DNA of 64,000 bases, from positions 12,338,001 through 12,402,000 of the forward strand of contig JAPNXP010000002.1 of the NCBI GenBank assembly GCA_028753945.1, read 5' to 3'. The notes beneath the pieces are model-generated. The model was not told the origin of the DNA, did not search any database, and saw only the letters and a program-made list of their open reading frames with translations. A program made the position numbers and the translations under genes. Positions 168 through 52,645 of this stretch are shown here, piece after piece; position 1 is the first letter of the stretch; every line of letters starts with the position of its first letter. The DNA is from Hexactinellida sp. DTS-2022. Taxonomy: Eukaryota; Porifera; Hexactinellida.

Positions 168-329
168 ACCAGCGGGTGACTCACGAGCACCAGATGCACC
201 GGATGGACTAGCCACTCACGAGCAGTCAGTAGCCTATACCCAACACCAAAGAAATTGGAAAAGAGGGACAAGCAAAGCACAACCTCAGCACCGCCAGTCT
301 GGATGTTACGTCTGTGGTGAAGATCATTC

Positions 330-1688
330 ATGCGCTTCTGCCCACAGAAATGCTGCCCAGTGTGTGGTACCCGTGGACACTCTCTTAGCAACTGCCCCCG
401 GAAGAAGCGCGGGCCGAAACAAAGAATCATGCAAGTAAAAAACCGTACACTCGGCTCAGAGCTGTTCGTCATACTCACTGTGAAACTAGACAACGCAGCA
501 TTAGAGATGGTACTGGACTCCGGAGCGGGACCCTCGGTGATCGACCTGGGAACTGTACGATACCTTGGGCTGGAACGAGAGATAAATCTCCGCGCAGGGA
601 TGGTGTACGGCGTCGGCCAAAATCCGGTACACCTTATCGGGAACATCACCTTGGACGTCGACATCGGTGACAACCAGATTGCCCGGCATTCATTCGGAGT
701 ACTGGCAGATACCAACAAAACTCGAATATTGGGGCGGGACCTGCTTAGAAAATTTGGTCCCACAGAATTCGACTGGGACAGTCACCGCGTGCGCCTGGGA
801 TCCGTGTGGAAAGATACCCGTGCAATCCTCCAGGGAGGCGATGCAATATCGCGTTCTGCCGTCGCTGCACTTGAAACCGAAACCAATAAGCAAGTACACA
901 TTTCAAGTGGTTCCGCAATAGAAGGGGAACAACCCAAAATTTCGATCAACCCGGAATTACCAGAGCGAATCAGAAGGGAACTGGGTTCCTTAGTTTACGA
1001 GTTCTCCGAAGTATTTGCTCACAACCCTAAGTCACCAAACGTCACTCCTTTCGCTAAACACGCGATCCTAACAGGGGACAACCTGCCTGTTAAGAACAAG
1101 CAACGGCGCGTCTCCCCATCCACCCAGACGATGATAGACGATCAGATTACAGAGATGTTGCACAACGGGATCTGCAGTCCATCCAACTCACCGTGGAGCA
1201 GCCCGGTCATACTCATCACTAAGAAAGACGGGGGTACCCGATTTGTGGTAGACTACCGGGGACTCAACGACCTAACAAGGAAGGATGCATACCTAATGCC
1301 GAACCCGCGCGATATACTGGATACCCTCCTTGGAAATAACTATTTCTCTTCCCTCGACTGCGCAAGCGCATATTGGGCTGTAGGCATCGAAGCGGAGGAC
1401 CAACCGAAGACAGCCTTCTCTACCCCGCGGGGGCACTTCGAAATGACTCGAATGGCCTTTGGGCTATGTAACAGCCAGGCAACTAATCAACGGCTTATGG
1501 ATCAGACTCTGCACGGCGTAAGGCACTCCCACTCATACGTAGACGATGTCTTAATCCACTCTCCAAGTTTCGGCTACATATCAGCGATATCCGTGAGGCT
1601 CTTATGCGTATCCGCAGTGCGCGGATACAGCGACGCGCCGACAAATGCCGACTCGGATATCAACAGATCGAATTCGTCGGGCACTTGA
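330..1688 (+). pseudogene. pol: Ty3/gypsy gag zinc knuckle, aspartic protease and reverse transcriptase
   Basis: This is the pol polyprotein of an LTR retrotransposon, which copies element RNA into DNA inside virus-like particles. A CX2CX4HX4C zinc knuckle spans residues 9-22. The retropepsin motif DSGA is at residues 63-66 (LDSGAG). The RT core follows: FVVDYRGLND, SSLDCASAYW, FSTPRGHFEMTRMAFGL and the catalytic YVDD at about 403-406. Shortly after YVDD, near position 1560, the frame slips and the ORF tail is not RT. The lost frame is readable downstream (EFVGHLITPSGH), followed by stops near 1730. A frameshift also separates this ORF from the first zinc knuckle. The copy is therefore dead although its motifs are well kept. 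Confidence 0.9.
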
Positions 1689-15660: not shown

Positions 15661-16449
15661 TCATCCATGCTTTTTTTGGCTGAAGTAATTTACGGGAAAT
15701 TCAGATTTATTTATTCCTTTAAGACATCTTGGATTTTCAGATTTCCATATTAAAATAGGCTGTTCTTTCGTACCAGCTGCGGAAACAAAGAACGCAACAG
15801 TTACACGTTGTTTGACTTTCTTTCCTCCTTTACATTCCTTTCCCTTTTTCCCAAATCCGCGATGGGGTAGAGCCTTCCAAAAAACACCCGTCTCGTCCAT
15901 ATTCCATATATCTTCCTTTGTGTAGCCCTGTAGAATCTCGGGGAGCCGCTCTTTCCATGAACTTAGGGTTGGTCCCTGCACATCACCTGACTCTCCACAA
16001 ATAGTCAACTGTTTCACATTATATCTAAATTTCCACTTCTGTAACCAGCCCCGAGAACATTTAAAATTTGAAATCTTAATGCGCTCGGCAATTTCTTTAG
16101 CCTTTTCCATCAGCTGAGGTCCTCCTGGAAATATATTCTTCGAGCATGCTAAGATATACCATTCATGAAGTACTTTGTTTATTTCACTGAATTGTGATTT
16201 ACGACCTATCACATTTACATGTAGTCTATCCACAGATGCGTTAGACTCATACATGGTAAGAATTGATTCCTTGTTCTTGAGGATGCTTGCAATTTGAGTC
16301 CTACAACACGTGAAAATTTTCTCTATGCTTCTGATACTGATGCCTGGATTCTTTTCAGTGAAGTGAATCAATTCAACTTTCTTCTTCAGATTTAGAAATT
16401 TTCTCTTTTTTGGTACTAGACTAGTCATCCTATTAATTAAATGCAACAT
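15661..16449 (-). pseudogene. Tigger transposase, N-terminal HTH and first DDE residue
   Basis: Residues about 10-55 form a psq-type helix-turn-helix (VPKKRKFLNLKKKVELIHF). Residues 75-145 are the CENP-B/Tc5 HTH (LHEWYILACSKNI, SRGWLQKWKFRYNV). The catalytic core opens with EDIWNMDETGVFWKALP (first Asp near 15890) and RVTVAFFVSAAGTKEQPILI. The enzyme binds the element's inverted ends and cuts at TA. It stops early at KKHG because of a frameshift in a poly-A run, so this copy would not make active protein without it. Confidence 0.9.
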
Positions 16450-16781
16450 TAATACAATTCAAGTAAATTCTAATCCCACTCGTCACTATTTTTCTTATTT
16501 GGATAATAAATTAAGTACGGTGGAAGTGGAACAAGCTTAAAATCGCGCCAAGGACTGGAAGAAAAGATTGAGGATTTTAGGTAGATTATAGTGGCAAACT
16601 GGCAAATACCTCGTACTATTTCACTGTATAATATTCAATTAATATGTAATTTTCATTACATTACTTTGAAAATGTGATTTAATAACAAGTTATAATATTT
16701 TTGTATGCATTGCTGTTTAAATAAACGTATAAAGCATCAAATATATCAAGAAAACTTTCAAATATAACTAATCTATTTGGC

Positions 16782-21389: not shown

Positions 21390-24043
21390 CTAAACACCAC
21401 AGAAACACCAATCTTTCCAGACATCACTGTATCCCTCTTCAATAAAGTTCATTGAGATACTCATCAACAGGCTACGGGATGGTCCAGAATAGAATTCCTT
21501 GCTTAAAGATTCACAGTTGTCAATTCTGAGGAAGGTTTCATATAATATGCAAACACATTTTACCACATAACGAGAAGGATATTTAAGAGAGCCCCTATCC
21601 ACTAAATCAATCAAAGTATATTGGGAGCAGTGGCGTAGCCAAGCCCGGGCCTGGGAGGCACAGGCCCGGGCAACTTCTCTCTGTGCCCGGGCAATATCTT
21701 TAACTGGGGTCATATTTAGTGCAGTGGCGTAGCCAAGCCCGGGCCTGGGAGGCATAGGCCCGGGAAACTTCTCTCTGTGCCCGGGCAATCACTCGGGGCT
21801 GGCTACGCCACTGATTGGGAGCCAACGTCATTGTTAACTTCTAGGAGTTTATCTGATGTTAAAAGATGATGGCAAGATAGACAGCCATTAGACTTCTTAA
21901 AGTAAGAGAAGACTGCGTATCCTGCTATATAAACGAGACATTTCATTTGAGAAACCTCTATTTCAGGGACTGAAATTTCATTCAATGTGGTTAGATAAAT
22001 TTCTATATCGTGTTGCTGCTCATTACAACTATCAAAATCGTCAGCAAATTTGTGAAGGTATTATTTAAGAGAAATAATGTCACACAAGAGATAGCACCAT
22101 ATTTTAGAGCGACCACTTTTAGAATGTTAAAAAGTTAGAGTCTGCGTTCGCTTTCCAAAATTTGGTTAAATGAAATCTGGTAGTGAGACCCTGACATATG
22201 TCTATATAAACCGAAGTGGTGATCCAGCGCATCATTTTGAATTCTTGCAGTTTGACGGTACTGGTATCCGCAGTTCTCGGTAAGTTGTTTGACCAGCAGT
22301 GGTAACGCCTCGCATGTGTGTAGGAAATTGGTAAAGGTTTGTGGTGTTAACTTTCCATATAAAGATGGCAGATTATTCCAAATATCTAACCAAGAGACGA
22401 CTTTTTCTTTATGTAAAGGAAAATATCCTGGGTAAATTGGAGCTGAAATATTCATCCTTAAAACGTATATCTTTTCCGACCCAGTTGACATTGAATAGTT
22501 TCCACACCTGATTGATTAATTCAAGGAATTCTACTGTTTGAGTCGTGTGTATGATGTCTTTTTCCATTTTCAACGATAACAAGCTGGCATATGTTGTCTC
22601 ATGGAAAATTTTCAAAGCAAAACTAACATTTTGTCGTTCTATCCTTGTGGCCCAACACGCTTCGCTGTTAATCTTGGTGCTCGTTTCAAGACATTACATT
22701 TATCAGAATTGAATAAATATGGATATCTTGAAAGGGTGCATAACATAGTTCAGGATAATGAGATTTAGAGGTAAATTGAATGGTCGAAATGTTGGTTCTA
22801 GAAATGGAGACGTAAAAACCTTTGTTTACGTTACTGATATTTTGTTGTACACATAATTTGCATTCAGCAAATTTCGGAAAAATAAATGTATTGTCAAAAT
22901 TTTTTAGATTTAACCAATTATTCCTGATGGACTTAATGATATGAACAAAATCAAAAAACAAAATTAAACTTCTTTGTGGATTGCATGGGTGCTGTACCTT
23001 TGGTTCCAGTCTCGAATTAATTGAAAAGAATTTGTATTAACGAACATTGAGTGGATAATTATCAGTACACACAGCTTCAACAAACAGACCACAAGCTTCG
23101 ATGTCACATATAGTTGATTTAACAATTGGGTATACTAATTCTGCAGATGAAGAACCCAAAGGTATTAATCACACAATGGTGGAAAACCTGGCCGATAAAC
23201 TAGAAACCATCATAGAAAAAACTGTAGTATGTGGATCATCCGGATTATGAATCGACTCAATTATCCTTCCTCCCTTATAGGATGCATTACTACGAATGTG
23301 AACTTCATCCATTTGAAGAATCACATGGCGCTCTAAATCATTAAACGTGGTAGCAACTTCTTCAAGAATTTTAGTATACTCACTCTCTAGGCCAATACTA
23401 TTTTTGATCTTCAACAAATTACGTTCGTGTGGAAGTATGATGCAGTTAGAGCTTTGGATAAGCCGATAACAAGCTGGTGAAATTCCGTGAATTTTTAGAC
23501 AAAAGACCTGAGTGAGAATATTATAACGGCGAGCATGTTTATTAACAATTAAGTATTTCAGCTGATCGAGCAAAAAATTAAGTCGGATTAGCATATAATC
23601 ATTTCTCGGCTTCGAAATCAAATGTGGAATGGGTAGGATCTAGTGTATCATTAGCACTAGAAAGAATATGAATGGCATTCTCGACATGTTTTTTCAAAGG
23701 GGTCGCTGTGGAAATTGAGCAATCTTTTTGACTCATTTCAAATATTTCAACTTTATGAAGAATATTTTTTAACAATCTGATATCGTTAAACAAATTACAA
23801 GATAGTTTGATTATATTATTTTCTTTAAAACAATTATTGAACGTTCGACCGTAGAAATTTCATTATGATGTTGAATCTTAAGAAATAGATATGATTGTAG
23901 AATTGGGTCGATGAAGAAGCCAACCGTTAGGTAGTGAAGTTCAATTAGATGTAACTTAGAAATAATACAATTAAGAGTAGAAAGAATAAACTTGGCTTCA
24001 GTTTCTTTGAAATATGCGCGGGTCTTCTGGTAGGCTTCCTGTA
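21390..24043 (-). pseudogene. P/THAP9-like transposase body
   Basis: Fragments in order along the minus strand: WKRVQEAYQKTRAYFKETEA at the nested hAT edge, a helical region (23600-24000), HVILQMDEVHIRSN (catalytic Asp, ~23300), VFSMMVSSLSARFSTIV, FFDFVHIIKSIRNNWLNLK (second Asp region, ~22930), the helical insertion (22400-22650), NDALDHHFGLYRHMSGSHY (~22200), and YIAGYAVFSYFKK near 21920. This order is that of P-element/THAP9 transposases (RNase H fold split by a GTP-binding insertion). Several frameshifts and a MITE near the end make it inactive. At the usual LE-type position this copy has LD, unlike the copy at 59566. Confidence 0.82.
21628..21813. mobile_element. hAT-type MITE, 186 bp, with internal duplication
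   Basis: Starts CAGTGGCGTAGCCAAGCCC and ends GGGGCTGGCTACGCCACTG, with a perfect 8-bp duplication ATTGGGAG (21620-21627, 21814-21821). A ~75-bp left-end unit is repeated at about 21722, giving two left ends in tandem. Nested in the P-like transposase gene. Confidence 0.93.
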
Positions 24044-24420
24044 CCCTCTTCCATGGGCGGCGCGGCCGCACCCCGCGCGGGTGATTCACCCGCGGGCCCC
24101 TCAACCGATTACAAAGGGGGGGCCCCCCGGGGCCCTGGACAAAGGGGACTAGTAGGGCAGGGAATTACGGGCCGGGTGGGGCCCTCATGGGCCTACATGA
24201 ACAAATACTGGGCCCCAGTGATCACCCTAAAACACGATGGCTCTACTAGCGATGTTCGGTAAACATATCACCTGTGAATAAACAACGCGCGAACAGGCAA
24301 TTGAACACCAGTCAAACAAACAAGTCAAAGCATTAAATCAGCTACAATACAGAGAGGGGCCTGCAGAACGTATACACAAACATTAATTACAATTTAAACA
24401 CAACACAATAATATGCAGAA

Positions 24421-27400
24421 TTATACTTGCAGTAGCCTCCTCCACACACTGGTCTCGACTGCAAACTGATCGACCAATGCTTCAAGGTCGAGCGATTTAA
24501 GAATGTCGGCATTGACGTAGCACATCAGTGCATCGGCGGTGTGCTCTTCAGAGAGCGCTGCCCTGAGCCGTGTTTTCAGAAACTTGAGCCCTGACCAACT
24601 ACGTTCACATTCATCGACATCCACACTCAGAGTGAGGATGTGATGATAGATCAGCGAGACGTAGCGGTAGCGTTGTGGGTTGGTGGATCTAGAGTACAAT
24701 ATGTACTGGTATGTGCATATGAGACACTTCCACGGCTTGTGCTGCTTGACACGGTGAGCCCCAATTTCCTCCAGTTCGCTCATGAAATCACCACCATATG
24801 ATCCATCATCATCGATCACCTGCCAGTCATCTTCGTCATCGTGATTGTGGCAAGCAGACTCAAGCTCAGCAGTTGCTTGGGTAGCGAGGTGCTCCCGCAG
24901 CATTCTGAGCTGGGCCCGCAGTGCTGGTACGTCGATGTTGTACAAAGACGGCTTGTCCCGAATGTAGGAGTCGAAGTCGAACCTCCCAATCTCCAGGTCG
25001 GTCCTTCCAACCAAGTGCACAGGTACCACCATAGAGCACATTCTGTTGAAGCTCCGCCCTCCCTCGGATCTGAACCGAGCATTAAGCTCTTCCAGAATCG
25101 CGTTCAACATATTTTCTCTGATTGATTTGAGCTTCTGACGAGGCATGGCCCACTCTTGATTTCGTCTAGCTGCACGCACACCTCTGCCGTACTCGAACCC
25201 CACGTCAAGGTAGTCAACATTGGCTCCACCCACGCCCAAACGACGCACAACTGAGTCTTCCAGACGCTGGAGGTATTCCTCAGCTGCTATCCAAAACTGA
25301 TTCCACTGCTCTTCTGATACCGCCGCCTCTATGCGAGCAATCACCCTTTCGATCAGCTGATCGACAGAGCTATAGTCTGAGTCTCTGGCCTGCATGTAGC
25401 CCATTATCAGGTCAATCCAACCCAGACACTGCGAATATGCGAGCCCAACCATGACATGTTCACTCTTCAGCAGTTGATCCAGAAGCGCGGTAGCGTCTCC
25501 ACGAGTGCCGGCGTCGAAATCGTCATTCTCTCGGATTGCCACCACCGCATCAATAACATCCACAAACAGCGCGTCATCGAGGGTGTTTGCTGCAGAACCT
25601 TCCTCCCAACGACCGATCAGCCTCCGTAGGGACGCGTACCTCCCGTGCCACTTATGTGTCTTAAACTTCTTCAAACGTCTCGTGCCGGCATTCCCTGTAT
25701 GGTTTCCCTTGATAACTGTAGCCAAAACATCATAGCGCTTGTATCCGCCAAAGAAAACTGGCAGGCTTTGCAACACCGAGAATAGTCCCTGCGTGCTCCT
25801 GTCGGCGGCATCGGCACAATGGTTGACCACCACCAGTGACAGGCGATGAGAATGACACCACGCATGTACGTGTCCCGGGACTACAGCGGCGAAATTTTCA
25901 GCGAGTTTCTGCATAACAGACGCACCATCGAAGGAATGCCCAACACATTTCCTCTTCCAATCAAGCCGAAACCTTTCGAATATGTTCTTCAGCTTCCAAA
26001 ACAGGTCATCTGCACGGCCCTTGACTACGGTCGACACATCTAGCAGCCGCTCTTCGATGAGACCCTCCTGAGGCACAAACTTCTCTTCAGCATCCCGATG
26101 TGTTTTGCGCACTGTTCGGATCACAAGCGCAAACTGATCCCTTGAACTGGTGTCGATGGTGCTGTCGACCTGGAAGGAGAACGTCACACAACCAGTAATT
26201 CGACACAGAATGCTTTTCCTCACAGCGTTTGCTAGAATCAGCAGTATGGTGTCGATAGTGGTCTTGCCGAAAAAGGATGGCCGCTGATCGTTTGGTGTCA
26301 CCATCGTCAGCTTTGTCCCAGCCCTTGACTTCTGGAACTGCATCAGGTGCTCCCGCAGCAATGGATCCACTGCGGCCATAGTCTGGAGCATAGCCTGCAG
26401 GTTGCCCAGCCGACAATAAGGATTGAGTGTCTGTGACGCCGCTTCGTTGCGGTGGCCCCTCCAGGCTTGTCCCTGGCACAACAAATGCTGCATGGCGAGG
26501 AAGATGCGCCTGACAATCGCTCTGTTGCGCTCCACCTCGGGTTTCATGCCCTTCTTCAGCAGCTGTCTGGTGCTCTTCCCCTGCCTCTCCGCGTAAAAGC
26601 TGTCGCTTGCAGCGTCATGTGCGGGGCTATTCTCGTGGCGAGCGATGGTTCGCAGGTGATAACCGTGAGCGGCCTCGAACGGATCCCCGCGTACCATGAC
26701 CGCGGTGGGATCCTTCCCGAAGCAAATGCAAATCGTACAGTAGAAGCGGCCGTTGCACACGTTGTACGATAACCACTTGCGCCTGCTTTCCTCTTTGCAT
26801 CCGTGGTCGTTAGCGAAGTATGTGTTCCAAGTCGAGAAAGGAATTCGATCTGTGGGCTGAATGAGGTGCACCTTCATCAAAAATTCGAGCTCTCCACCGC
26901 CAGCGGGCCTTCGGAATCGATCGTCCACTATGTCGGTGCCGTCCTCCTCAGCATTATGTTCCATCGAAGGATTCTCCGATAGGGATGCGCCAGGTTCCAA
27001 GAGGAGCTGTGCCGCGCCGGACACGATTTCCGGAGGATCTGTGCTTGGCCCGGCTGCAGGAGGAGATGTGCTGGAGGAGGTTGCAGGAGCTGTCCCACCT
27101 CCGCCGGACACATCTTGCTTCTGCCTCCTCAACTTCAAGTAGTTGAAGAGACCCAATTGACCTTTGGGCACTTGCAGCTTTTGAGTATCACTCCTTTTCT
27201 TTCTCTTGGCCCAGCCAGAAGTAGTAGAACGCTGTGTCAGTGCCACCACCTGCCCAGTGCCGGATTGCATCCGGTCGGATTCGGCAACCGCGCTGACTTT
27301 CCGCTTCTTCTCAGCAGACTCGTGCGGGTTTGTGTTGGAAGTCTGCTCAGAAGCCGAGGTAGTCCCACCCTCGCTATCATCAGGGTTCTCGTAAAGCGGC

Positions 27401-27972
27401 CCCAGGCTAGCGCTCGCTCTTGCAACAGCACGATTCACCTGCTGAATCGCATCCGCGTCCACACTCCAGTCAACCTCCTTAATATTGCAGTTTAGGTCGA
27501 TGTTGTCCACAATCGTAGCGATCTGGTGATGGTTGATGGTCGCGGGCAGATAGGGGAAGCCATCGCTGGCGAAGGCTGCCGCCTGATAGTGGCCCCCGCC
27601 TCGGCTCCTGAAAATCAGCGGAATCACTACCGATTCGGGGTCTACATTAAGCAGATTCCCAGCATCGATGCAGGAATAAAACTGCACATTCCAGCCTTGA
27701 AACAGGTCGAACAAAACGACGATGTGAACTCCGACCGCCCTAGCCAGCACCGCTAGCTCTGCGTCATCAGGCTCTGATCCAAGCTCCTTGAGATGCTCCT
27801 TGCGAGGTCCGTCGGGCATTGCATCAACCATTCGTGCACGATATAGCGCATGATAGGTTTCGTCACCGTCATGCAGAGCCATCGAAATCGAGTTGAAGCA
27901 GCAATTTCCGTCGCCAGTCGAATTGAAGATAGTGAGAAACATGAGAATAAACAATCTAATGAAGAACTGCAA
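24421..27972 (-). CDS. hAT transposase with N-terminal OTU cysteine-protease domain, 1183 aa
   Basis: The protein joins two modules. Residues ~17-135 form an OTU deubiquitinase-like domain: GDGNCCFNSIS supplies the Asp21/Cys24 pair and GGHYQAA the catalytic His128. After a Ser/Pro/Lys-rich linker (~200-340, with a likely nuclear signal AKRKKR) comes a hAT transposase: TTF-type zinc-finger region (LSYNVCNGRFYCTICICFGK), first Asp block QVDSTIDTSSRDQFAL, second block GHSFDGASVMQ, AWCHSHRLSLVVV, a long helical insertion, and the hATC dimerisation segment with ERSWSGLKFLKTRLRAAL. All three OTU residues and the hAT blocks are intact and there is no stop. Met 27972 is the first in frame; the OTU fold may begin right there, so an upstream exon is possible. 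The protease could edit ubiquitin on host factors or on itself; that role is inference. Confidence 0.9.
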   Translation of the reverse strand: MQFFIRLFILMFLTIFNSTGDGNCCFNSISMALHDGDETYHALYRARMVDAMPDGPRKEHLKELGSEPDDAELAVLARAVGVHIVVLFDLFQGWNVQFYSCIDAGNLLNVDPESVVIPLIFRSRGGGHYQAAAFASDGFPYLPATINHHQIATIVDNIDLNCNIKEVDWSVDADAIQQVNRAVARASASLGPLYENPDDSEGGTTSASEQTSNTNPHESAEKKRKVSAVAESDRMQSGTGQVVALTQRSTTSGWAKRKKRSDTQKLQVPKGQLGLFNYLKLRRQKQDVSGGGGTAPATSSSTSPPAAGPSTDPPEIVSGAAQLLLEPGASLSENPSMEHNAEEDGTDIVDDRFRRPAGGGELEFLMKVHLIQPTDRIPFSTWNTYFANDHGCKEESRRKWLSYNVCNGRFYCTICICFGKDPTAVMVRGDPFEAAHGYHLRTIARHENSPAHDAASDSFYAERQGKSTRQLLKKGMKPEVERNRAIVRRIFLAMQHLLCQGQAWRGHRNEAASQTLNPYCRLGNLQAMLQTMAAVDPLLREHLMQFQKSRAGTKLTMVTPNDQRPSFFGKTTIDTILLILANAVRKSILCRITGCVTFSFQVDSTIDTSSRDQFALVIRTVRKTHRDAEEKFVPQEGLIEERLLDVSTVVKGRADDLFWKLKNIFERFRLDWKRKCVGHSFDGASVMQKLAENFAAVVPGHVHAWCHSHRLSLVVVNHCADAADRSTQGLFSVLQSLPVFFGGYKRYDVLATVIKGNHTGNAGTRRLKKFKTHKWHGRYASLRRLIGRWEEGSAANTLDDALFVDVIDAVVAIRENDDFDAGTRGDATALLDQLLKSEHVMVGLAYSQCLGWIDLIMGYMQARDSDYSSVDQLIERVIARIEAAVSEEQWNQFWIAAEEYLQRLEDSVVRRLGVGGANVDYLDVGFEYGRGVRAARRNQEWAMPRQKLKSIRENMLNAILEELNARFRSEGGRSFNRMCSMVVPVHLVGRTDLEIGRFDFDSYIRDKPSLYNIDVPALRAQLRMLREHLATQATAELESACHNHDDEDDWQVIDDDGSYGGDFMSELEEIGAHRVKQHKPWKCLICTYQYILYSRSTNPQRYRYVSLIYHHILTLSVDVDECERSWSGLKFLKTRLRAALSEEHTADALMCYVNADILKSLDLEALVDQFAVETSVWRRLLQV

Positions 27973-28044
27973 GGGGGAAGAAGGAAAACACTGGATTTAT
28001 AAAAGACCAATTTTTATGGTTTATTAATAGGTCCATTTAAAAAC

Positions 28045-28205
28045 ATGCCTATATTGGGCAGAGAAAATTTCACATATAGGGCCGCTGATAAAACCTTCCA
28101 TATTGGGCACAAAGCTGAAGACAAATCGGCCATATTGGGCGCACGTACTTGACTATAGTAACCTGCCCATATTGGGCAGACTAGCCTGCCCATTTTGGGC
28201 AAACA
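28045..28205. promoter_or_regulatory. subterminal ATATTGGGC repeats of the OTU-hAT
   Basis: Four copies of (C)CTATATTGGGC / CCATATTGGGC plus one CCATTTTGGGC occur between the right end and the gene start. Short repeated motifs just inside the ends are where hAT transposases usually bind, and this region should also hold the promoter. Function is inferred from position. Confidence 0.5.
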
Positions 28206-28342
28206 ATTTATGTTGTAGCCTTCCCTTAAAAACTGTGGCAAGGCCGAATTTAGATAGGGATCCGGGGGCTTCCAAAAAATGTGGGCCCCTCAAGGTCGAA
28301 CACCCGGGGGCCCCCAAAAGGCGCGCCGCCTCTGCCCTCTTC

Positions 28343-28539
28343 TCCTCCTTAACATCTAAAGATAGTCTTTGACATCTATCAACAGCATCTGTTACATAGC
28401 TAGGACAGTTTGGAAAGATGCTAGGGACTGCACACTTCTTCAGAGCCACTTTCTTCTTGATCGTCTCAATCATCTCCATTCCATTGAAGTATTGAATGGT
28501 CCTCTCTATGTCTTCTTCATGGAAATGGTGTATGCAGAC
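28343..28539 (-). pseudogene. P/THAP9-like transposase exon 2 (end of THAP domain)
   Basis: Reading VCIHHFHEEDIERTIQYFNG then LKKCAVPSIFPNCPSYVTD, this is the second half of a THAP zinc finger: C-x2-H of the C2CH site and the AVPtiF tail. It continues into a basic stretch ending at the OTU-hAT insertion site. The transposase body resumes at 24043 on the other side of that element. Confidence 0.8.
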
Positions 28540-28584
28540 CTTCAAAACAAAAGATATAGAAGTAAACATATGATAACAAAGTAC
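28540..28584 (-). other. 45-nt intron in the THAP domain
   Basis: On the minus strand GTACTTTG begins and TTTTGAAG ends the segment, both matching GT-AG. Removing it joins MNKRLK directly to VCIHHF at the spacing THAP domains need. It contains no stop, so retention would still be open; splicing is inferred from the domain. Confidence 0.55.
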
Positions 28585-28739
28585 CTTCAATCGTTTATTC
28601 ATTTCGTAGTCTTCTCTCTGACTAGGTATTGCTCGGAACCACTTCTCACGAGTTTCAACATCAGTGGGAAAGAGAAAACAGGTACATATTCATCTTTGTC
28701 AGAATAGTTCGACTTACACCGAGGTACGAGGCAAGTCAT
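28585..28739 (-). pseudogene. P/THAP9-like transposase exon 1 (start of THAP domain)
   Basis: Begins MTCLVPRCKSNY at 28739, giving the C-x4-C half of the THAP C2CH finger, then VPVFSFP and, after a one-base deletion near 28665, REKWFRAIP with the conserved Trp. This is the DNA-binding head of the P-like transposase and the point where its transcript would start. Confidence 0.78.
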
Positions 28740-52014: not shown

Positions 52015-52645
52015 CTGATGAAGAACTGGTAGAAACGGGTATTATACGTTATAGTTTACCAAACTTTCGTCCACCTCACATTGAGTGGCAAATTGGAACT
52101 TGTAAAAAATGGAATTTGAAATTTTGTCAGCAGGTGGCATACTCCTTTTCTGATATCTTACCGAACGAGGGAGGTTTGTTTAATTTTGATCCACATTTAA
52201 TGGAATATATACTTAAGAGATGGAAATTGCTATTTTTTCTACTATTTCAACCTTATAACCGGACGTAAAGGATATCATTTAGATATACAAACCCTAATAG
52301 TAGAAAATATGCTTGGAAAATTAAGCATGAGCTGTAATAAATATTTGCGTACAAAGTATGTGTACACTCAGGGTAATTATAGAAATGTGCAGGACTGGGT
52401 TAACAAAATGGGAATTAATAAGAATGGGAAATGGGCTACGGACCTGGAGGTTTTCGCAACTGCATGCTGTTTAACATTGATATTTGGATATATTTGGGTC
52501 CTCTTGGAACACGTTGGGCAAGCTTTTCAGGAAATGGAACAAGTTTTGATCAGCTAATAAAGACACCAACATCAAATGGTTTGTATATACAGGTTTGGTT
52601 AATCATTATGAGCCAATTCTTTCTGTTAAGTTAGGAAATCATACT
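52015..52645 (+). pseudogene. OTU domain at the C-terminus of the MULE/NOF-like transposase
   Basis: At 52214 the frame gives RDGNCYFFYYFNLITGRKGY, with the OTU Asp-Gly-Asn-Cys signature (52219-52230). It continues DIQTLIVENMLGKLSMSCNK, VQDWVNKMGINKNGKWATDL and EVFATACCL. After a frame change near 52470 come YLGPLGTRWASFSGNGTSFD and NGLYIQ..., then NHYEPILSVK near 52606-52635, carrying the catalytic His. Cys and His boxes are both preserved although frameshifts separate them. OTU proteases cleave ubiquitin links. The domain sits on the same strand directly after the DDE part, so I read it as one fused protein or adjacent exon. Confidence 0.62.

Follow-up and report, generated by a model that had tools for sequence, protein, structure and literature searches.

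Boundaries, target and copies of the element

Does the long open frame at this locus belong to a genuine mobile element, is its N-terminus related to the OTU family of proteases, and what might a hAT transposon gain from such a domain? The locus lies in a 64,000-nucleotide stretch of the genome of Hexactinellida sp. DTS-2022 (the window). The hAT element occupies 24052..28334 (4283 bp, with its gene on the minus strand) and is delimited by an 8-bp target site duplication (TSD), terminal repeats, empty-site paralogues and ends shared with a family of MITEs. Its two TSD copies (CCCTCTTC, 24044..24051 and 28335..28342, neither assigned a strand) match perfectly, as the initial annotation had it. 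The same annotation described paired ends of about 14 bp; terminal repeats are present (left, CATGGGCGGCGCGGC, 24052..24066, plus strand; right, CAGAGGCGGCGCGCC, 28320..28334, minus strand), but they agree at 12 of the first 15 positions and are therefore imperfect. The right end, CAGAG, agrees with the hAT consensus, from which the left end, CATGG, deviates at its third position. The 8-bp TSD and short terminal inverted repeats are those of the hAT superfamily. Upstream of the gene (28047..28200, plus strand) lie five clustered near-palindromic repeats resembling GCCCATATTGGGC; since this pattern occurs 13 times in the whole window, a count equalled by 9 of 100 shuffles, it is the clustering alone that is notable.

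The element is inserted into a decayed THAP/P-like transposon, represented by a THAP-domain fragment (28345..28689, minus strand, Pfam THAP E 2.7e-7) and a TNP-like RNase H fragment (23172..23639, minus strand, Pfam PF21787 E 6e-4, below the cut-off). The frameshifts that had been noticed all around the element are consistent with this insertion. All six paralogues of the target that were fetched have an empty site, with CCCTCTTC in single copy. The join is spanned by 36 of the 42 matches listed for the interrupted repeat family (40 of 68 candidates scored), and two of the six that do not span it are the window's own flanks. A host gene mistaken for a transposon was rejected as an explanation, given that the element interrupts a repeat family, and a chance frame or wrong boundaries are ruled out by the empty sites, TSDs and MITEs.

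Allowing up to two mismatches, the left-end 18-mer was found at 77 sites in the genome and the right-end 21-mer at 71, while the reversed controls gave none. Under a pairing rule of at most two mismatches and 12 kb, these ends form 68 pairs, 67 of them spaced 93–196 bp (MITEs) and the remaining one being the 4283-bp element; 9 of the 77 left and 3 of the 71 right ends stay unpaired. The 20 MITEs fetched have a mean identity of 98.3%, and 16 of them are flanked by perfect 8-bp TSDs. Together, the TSD, the empty sites and the MITEs establish that the ends of this element are mobile. The proposed search for further full copies with identical ends was thus answered in part: the ends do recur, as MITEs, but there was no second full-length copy among the genome's 68 paired ends. 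The right end of the MITEs is slightly unlike that of the 4283-bp copy, and their source may therefore be a sibling element.

An OTU-like domain at the start of a single frame

The gene is a single open frame (24421..27972, minus strand) of 1183 codons plus TAA when counted from a TTG, lying within a stop-to-stop frame (24421-27996, minus strand) that stays open for 1191 codons and spans both halves of the protein. The uninterrupted 1183 codons first reported hold from that TTG; the first ATG, at 27942, is residue 11, and an ATG-initiated protein would therefore have 1173 amino acids. As anatomy, the boundaries, the TSD and the single frame bear out a complete hAT element encoding an OTU-like/transposase fusion, and the sequence supports a structurally complete element whose one frame begins with an OTU-like domain.

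OTU cysteine proteases are recognised by the signature Asp-Gly-x-Cys and a C-terminal His. The OTU-like domain (approximately residues 18-135, 27568..27921, minus strand) was delineated with Pfam, hhalign and a database fragment, P0001, its His side being placed by eye. It carries the signature as D21, C24 and H128, all three as initially annotated. A Pfam search with residues 1-200 did match OTU (residues 20-59), but at an E of 0.031, below the cut-off and outscored by a DUF6630 match (residues 150-192, E 0.019); with the full-length protein no OTU match appeared even at E 10. Comparison by hhalign with OTU alignments from the same genome gave probabilities of 92.1% and 95.3% over residues 16-114 and 18-101, ending before the His. 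The OTU profile score was 45.2; the best of 200 shuffles reached 30.2, and the best of nine stretches from elsewhere in the frame 14.1. An OTU HMM gave 21.4 bits, and no shuffle out of 500 exceeded 3.3. As none of the 200 or 500 shuffles reached these scores, the resemblance is beyond chance, and we consider the N-terminal region to be, on these comparisons, a divergent homologue of the OTU family.

Other searches returned less. In a scan of its own genome for OTU domains, in which 150 matches were scored out of 440 candidates, the element did not appear, and a PDB sequence search gave no OTU match. Structure prediction, recommended earlier as a check for a papain-like OTU fold, was run with AlphaFold and proved uninformative (mean pLDDT 36.8 from a 2-sequence alignment, both models too poor to use). 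P0001, from one independent ENA contig, is 92% identical over residues 75-161 (87 residues, covering OTU part and linker) and retains the His motif; it has no precomputed Pfam domain.

The transposase half and its relatives

The two halves are joined by a low-complexity linker (27193..27312, minus strand) whose basic clusters EKKRK (221-225) and KRKKR (256-260) are possible nuclear localisation signals. Beyond it, a zf-TTF-like region rich in Cys and His (approximately residues 395-445, 26638..26790, minus strand) is recognised by alignment to two metagenomic hAT proteins, P0002 and P0003, and is followed by a DUF4371/RNase H-like core (residues 462-688, 25909..26589, minus strand, PF14291 E 2.8e-5, below the cut-off) and a C-terminal dimerisation-like region (residues 1097-1151, with the motif ECERSWS, 24520..24684, minus strand). 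The latter gave a Dimer_Tnp_hAT match (PF05699, E 0.19) that is below the cut-off and at the expected position. Residues D603 and D682 and the Cys/His pattern align with both metagenomic proteins, and the C-terminal E motif, ECERS, with P0003 alone because P0002 ends earlier. The DUF4371 match and the aligned Asp residues are those of a hAT-related RNase H-like DDE transposase, in the zf-TTF/DUF4371 family described in PMC3985635. Of the earlier statement that all main hAT blocks are present, the Cys/His pattern, the two Asp and the E motif stand by alignment, but the two domain matches fall short of their cut-offs.

The nearest relative in the genome (C11:4411670-4418346) is broken, and no match within the surrounding 19 kb precedes residue 680. 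For the broken sister copy, the parts of the transposase that were compared gave a dN/dS of 0.85 (0.53-1.21 by piece), with no clear sign of constraint. A second copy of the OTU part was not found in this genome. That an OTU is unusual for a hAT is supported within this genome: across 39 loci around hAT matches, the element's own locus alone scored for OTU. Many of these loci overlap, and in most of them the match was flanked by 1.5 kb to either side; an OTU displaced beyond that would be missed. Another relative (C1:9.906 Mb, 37-39% identical) aligns from about residue 252 onward, there weakly (E 0.028), and no OTU was detected in the 4.2 kb upstream of that residue.

Elsewhere, six peptide patterns each found no relatives among bacterial/archaeal and viral contigs. 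The whole protein had no match among 7996 protein database candidates scored; by parts, one fragment (P0001) matches the OTU part and two remote hATs (P0002, P0003) match the transposase. No report of an OTU-hAT fusion was found in literature searches, the scope of which did not extend to subscription papers or Repbase entries; PMC2613891, PMC9017028 and PMC12062965 have no bearing on such a fusion.

A possible role for the protease and comparison with known systems

Taking together what can be read from the sequence (boundaries, TSD, fused frame, residues of catalytic type in both halves and MITEs with the same ends), we favour, at a probability of about one half, a recently mobile zf-TTF/DUF4371-type hAT element that encodes OTU-like protease, basic linker and transposase as one polypeptide, the OTU prolonging the life of the transposase or transpososome. 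The transposase half would cut and paste the element, and the MITEs would be mobilised by elements of the same family. The OTU half might strip ubiquitin either from the transposase to which it is fused or from adjacent proteins at the ends of the transposon, with a longer-lived transposase or transpososome in the nucleus as the expected outcome. As everything is in a single polypeptide, the role of the protease in transposition could be tested by one point mutation (C24).

A transposon-borne OTU has precedents and is not new as an idea, such domains having been reported on Ginger1 and Helentrons (PMC2836005, PMC4067079, PMC6431247). The element resembles zf-TTF/DUF4371 hATs (PF14291) in its 8-bp TSD, short TIRs and the order zinc finger, RNase H-like core and putative dimerisation-like C-terminus, and differs from them by the N-terminal OTU-like domain; the N-terminal extras named in the available text of PMC3985635 are THAP and zf-FCS. 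Ginger1 is likewise a DNA transposon with an OTU within the transposase polypeptide, but its transposase is Gypsy-integrase-like and its OTU C-terminal (PMC2836005, available text), whereas here a hAT transposase (by its DUF4371 match) follows an N-terminal OTU. A further mark of the Ginger1 transposase is its GPY/F motif. Helentrons and Helitrons also encode OTUs, which in Helentrons can be additional ORFs (PMC4067079; also PMC6431247), but unlike hATs they are rolling-circle elements; in two Helitron-like frames of this genome (L011 and L016), a PIF1 helicase is combined with an OTU that lies C-terminal of the helicase. According to the available part of PMC9741609, deubiquitinase activity of Helitron OTUs was never addressed. 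The Helitron-encoded VTDs studied there by crystal structure and probe tests are a deubiquitinase-type domain on a mobile element, of another protease family and transposon class. Mutator carries a ubiquitin-like protease on a DNA transposon (PMC2836005), with the differences that this is Ulp1 and not OTU, and Mutator is not a hAT. The OTU would thus be a known transposon accessory, here on a superfamily for which our searches found no report. Were it active, a further class of transposons would be attaching a ubiquitin protease to the enzyme that it encodes, and there would be more reason to believe that animal transposases are under ubiquitin-dependent control. A bolder version, which we regard as distinctly doubtful, is that the cis deubiquitinase is active and makes the transposase self-stabilising, and that recruitment of ubiquitin or ubiquitin-like proteases by Ginger1, Helentron, Mutator and hAT elements reflects a general ubiquitin-based restriction of transposons; if so, these independent recruitments would mark a restriction that transposons repeatedly evolve to escape.

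Alternative explanations

A captured OTU-like domain could be real, divergent and catalytically weak or dead, carried along in a frame that chance has kept open, the insertion being young, and this has a genuine, if minority, chance of being right. The sub-threshold Pfam score, the want of a second genomic copy of the OTU part and the near-neutral dN/dS of the sister transposase all fit such a passenger. So does the Gln found at +2 from the His, where OTU enzymes commonly have Asn or Asp. It sits less easily with the retained D/C/H signature, the 1191 codons without interruption and the copy on the ENA contig, 92% identical over 87 residues.

Alternatively, the OTU might act on another substrate, such as ubiquitin-like modifiers, repair or chromatin factors present where the ends are cut, or a factor involved in silencing. 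For the OTU/Ulp1 of Ginger1, the discussion of PMC2836005 proposes a role together with repair factors, and the available text of PMC9741609 speculates that the transposon-encoded ancestors of VTDs helped to overcome a limit set by the germline on the inheritance of transposons. We think this quite unlikely, as the transposase, fused in cis, would be the nearest substrate.

It is improbable, in our view, that the locus yields its two halves as distinct proteins that do not act as a fusion, whether through internal initiation (e.g. at M235) or splicing. An internal Met 235 does precede the cluster KRKKR, and the C1 relative, with no detectable OTU, aligns (weakly) from about residue 252, but the frame is continuous with no intervening stop. 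That the N-terminal region is an extension unrelated to OTU is very improbable: the low Pfam score, the lack of a PDB sequence match and the uninformative model would fit, but the hhalign probabilities and the profile and HMM scores above every shuffle argue against it.

Base composition

GC3 is even along the frame (OTU 0.60, linker 0.58, transposase 0.61), in keeping with the single polypeptide favoured above, and unlike that of four other OTU-bearing transposon frames of this genome (0.27-0.40). The GC content of the element is 52.8%, compared with 37.9% in its flanks. A horizontal origin was considered from this high GC and not adopted, host RPL3 having a GC3 of 0.77 and the C1 relative 53% GC, although GC3 is 0.36-0.57 in five other hAT frames.

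Boundaries, insertion site and neighbourhood

The hAT element extends over window positions 24052-28334, exactly as the initial annotation had placed it, and the perfect 8-bp duplication described there is indeed identical on both sides (CCCTCTTC). The paired terminal repeats are present but imperfect, with 12 of the 15 outermost bases matching. The minus strand is open at 24421-27996 for 1191 codons from stop to stop; the uninterrupted frame of 1183 codons reported before is counted from a TTG, and the start codon is uncertain; the first ATG (residue 11) would yield a protein of 1173 aa.

The surroundings had been described as frameshifted, which agrees with an old, decayed P-like target: a THAP fragment (E 2.7e-7) occupies 28345-28689, and 23172-23639 matches TNP-like RNase H (E 6e-4, below its cut-off), pieces consistent with a transposon older than the insertion. 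When the joined flanks were used as query against the genome from which the window comes (112.4 Mb in 18 contigs), 36 of the 42 rows spanned the join, and all six paralogues fetched had the empty site, with a single CCCTCTTC and without the insert.

Five near-palindromic GCCCATATTGGGC-like repeats are found upstream of the element's gene (28047-28200), beyond the 42 bp over which that end of the element matches the MITEs. Elsewhere in the window there are pieces of a Gypsy-like retroelement (aspartyl protease and reverse transcriptase, 321-1685, plus strand) inside a GC-richer stretch of ~4 kb, and remains of a Tigger/pogo-like transposase (CENP-B_N and HTH_Tnp_Tc5, 15664-16458, minus strand).

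Shared ends and MITEs

The left end of the element was found by DNA search on 37 short elements, nearly all adjoined by a right-end row. A pattern search of the genome allowing up to two mismatches recovered 77 left and 71 right ends (reversed control patterns gave 0 matches), and 68 left ends had a right-end partner no more than 12 kb away. The spacing was 93-196 bp in 67 of these pairs, five of them in a tandem array on contig C13, and 4283 bp in the remaining one, the element itself. In a non-random choice of 20 of the 37 short elements, the 8-bp TSD was perfect in 16 and had a single mismatch in one; the other three shared a flank on just one side, as though they had recombined. Pairwise identity across the 20 averaged 98.3% (minimum 94.2%). 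Going by these copies, the element's ends are mobile. Since the right end reads GCGGCT in the MITEs vs GCGCCT in the element, a sibling element may have been their source.

The flank GTTGAGAT is common to three MITE copies (L066, L067 and L068), on one side only, as if through MITE recombination or composite formation. At C13:1255042-1293787 a related 179-bp end pair recurs every ~7.6-7.9 kb (five pairs and one unpaired right end), apparently carried in a tandem array.

The two halves of the predicted protein

In an alignment with two metagenomic hAT proteins, P0002 and P0003 (E 7.6e-24 and 1.1e-10), the transposase half keeps the zf-TTF-like Cys/His pattern, D603, D682, C706/H709 and W775. 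Its ECERSWS motif, close to residue 1121, is partnered by P0003 only, because P0002 ends earlier. The Pfam scores of this half (DUF4371, E 2.8e-5; dimerisation domain, E 0.19) stay below their cut-offs.

For the other half, a Pfam scan of the whole protein listed no OTU. Restricting it to residues 1-200, the check proposed with the initial annotation, does bring up OTU, but at E 0.031, below the cut-off, together with a DUF6630 match (E 0.019) that falls beyond the OTU core, over residues 150-192. A PDB sequence search returned no OTU. Profile comparison gave probabilities of 92.1% and 95.3% against four and 12 OTU domains of the same genome, respectively. The four-domain profile scored 45.2 vs 30.2 for the best of 200 shuffles, 11.5 for the reversed sequence and at most 14.1 for nine other stretches of the frame; the 12-domain HMM gave 21.4 bits over the whole frame (best domain 18.8, Cys side only), and 500 shuffles of the OTU stretch at most 3.3 bits. 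These profile alignments reach the Cys side and the middle, and the His side (GGGHY, H128) was assigned by eye. An AlphaFold model built from two sequences had a mean pLDDT of 36.8 and was unusable. A database fragment of 87 aa (P0001), encoded on one 12.4-kb ENA contig, is 92% identical to the element protein across residues 75-161, taking in the His motif and some of the linker; it has no precomputed Pfam domain.

Genomic copies and age of the fusion

A search of the genome with the protein gave 39 matches, and no full-length copy besides the element was among them. The copy next nearest in sequence lies at C11:4411670-4418346; its main pieces show 70-91% identity and contain three stops, it has two interruptions, and it lacks the first 679 residues. 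Three broken copies on C1 have equal scores (37-39% identity), and the other rows show 23-40%, except for one short fragment at 57%. The dN/dS of the transposase against the broken C11 sister was 0.85 (483 codons; pieces 0.53-1.21), a value in which clear constraint is not evident and which partly reflects the sister's decay. The C1 places of the degraded, 39%-identical hAT relative (9906083, 9971929 and 10033598) are 62-66 kb apart, which suggests segmental duplication.

The OTU part (residues 1-200) had no other genome match at E 1e-3 (4 candidates scored), and when 39 loci around hAT matches, many of which overlap, were scanned, OTU scored at the element's own locus only. GC3 hardly changes across the OTU part, linker and transposase (0.60, 0.58, 0.61), compared with 0.27-0.40 in four other OTU-carrying transposon frames, 0.36-0.57 in five other hAT frames and 0.77 in the host RPL3 gene; this agrees with, and does not prove, a common history of both halves. 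Judged by its ribosomal protein L3, the host is probably an animal, with vertebrate sequences of the PDB ranked highest and fly next.

Precedents and possible function

The sequence comparisons establish the element's anatomy, insertion, shared ends and fused frame. The hAT half would cut and paste the element, and the OTU might take ubiquitin off the transposase or its neighbours. Ginger1 transposases bear OTU domains, for which a connection to repair has been proposed (PMC2836005), and OTU is also known from Helentrons (PMC4067079, PMC6431247, PMC5148889); VTD deubiquitinases of Helitrons have been studied biochemically in PMC9741609, which states that Helitron OTU activity had never been addressed. 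In PMC3985635, DUF4371 proteins are reported to carry extra THAP or zf-FCS domains, with no mention of OTU in the passages covered. No OTU-bearing hAT transposase was found in the literature covered, as listed titles, openings of abstracts and selected passages, with Repbase, Dfam and most subscription papers outside its scope. The element has a known kind of accessory domain on a transposase superfamily for which we found no report of such a pairing, and its OTU-like domain lies at the opposite protein end from that of Ginger1.

OTU domains elsewhere in the genome

Of 440 candidate Pfam OTU matches in this genome 150 were scored, and at least 150 matches exceed the cut-off; that of the element is not one of them. 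Eight long OTU frames were scanned, and OTU in long, repeated frames is common here. A second OTU-like fragment in the window (52201-52554, plus strand) scores better with the four-domain HMM (44.7 bits, E 4.8e-12) and has no Pfam match at E 0.01. Two of the eight long frames (L011 and L016) are Helitron-like. The other six (L009, L010 and L012-L015) have a C-terminal OTU and no further Pfam domain at E 1e-3; near-equal OTU scores at many places suggest that they are high-copy elements.
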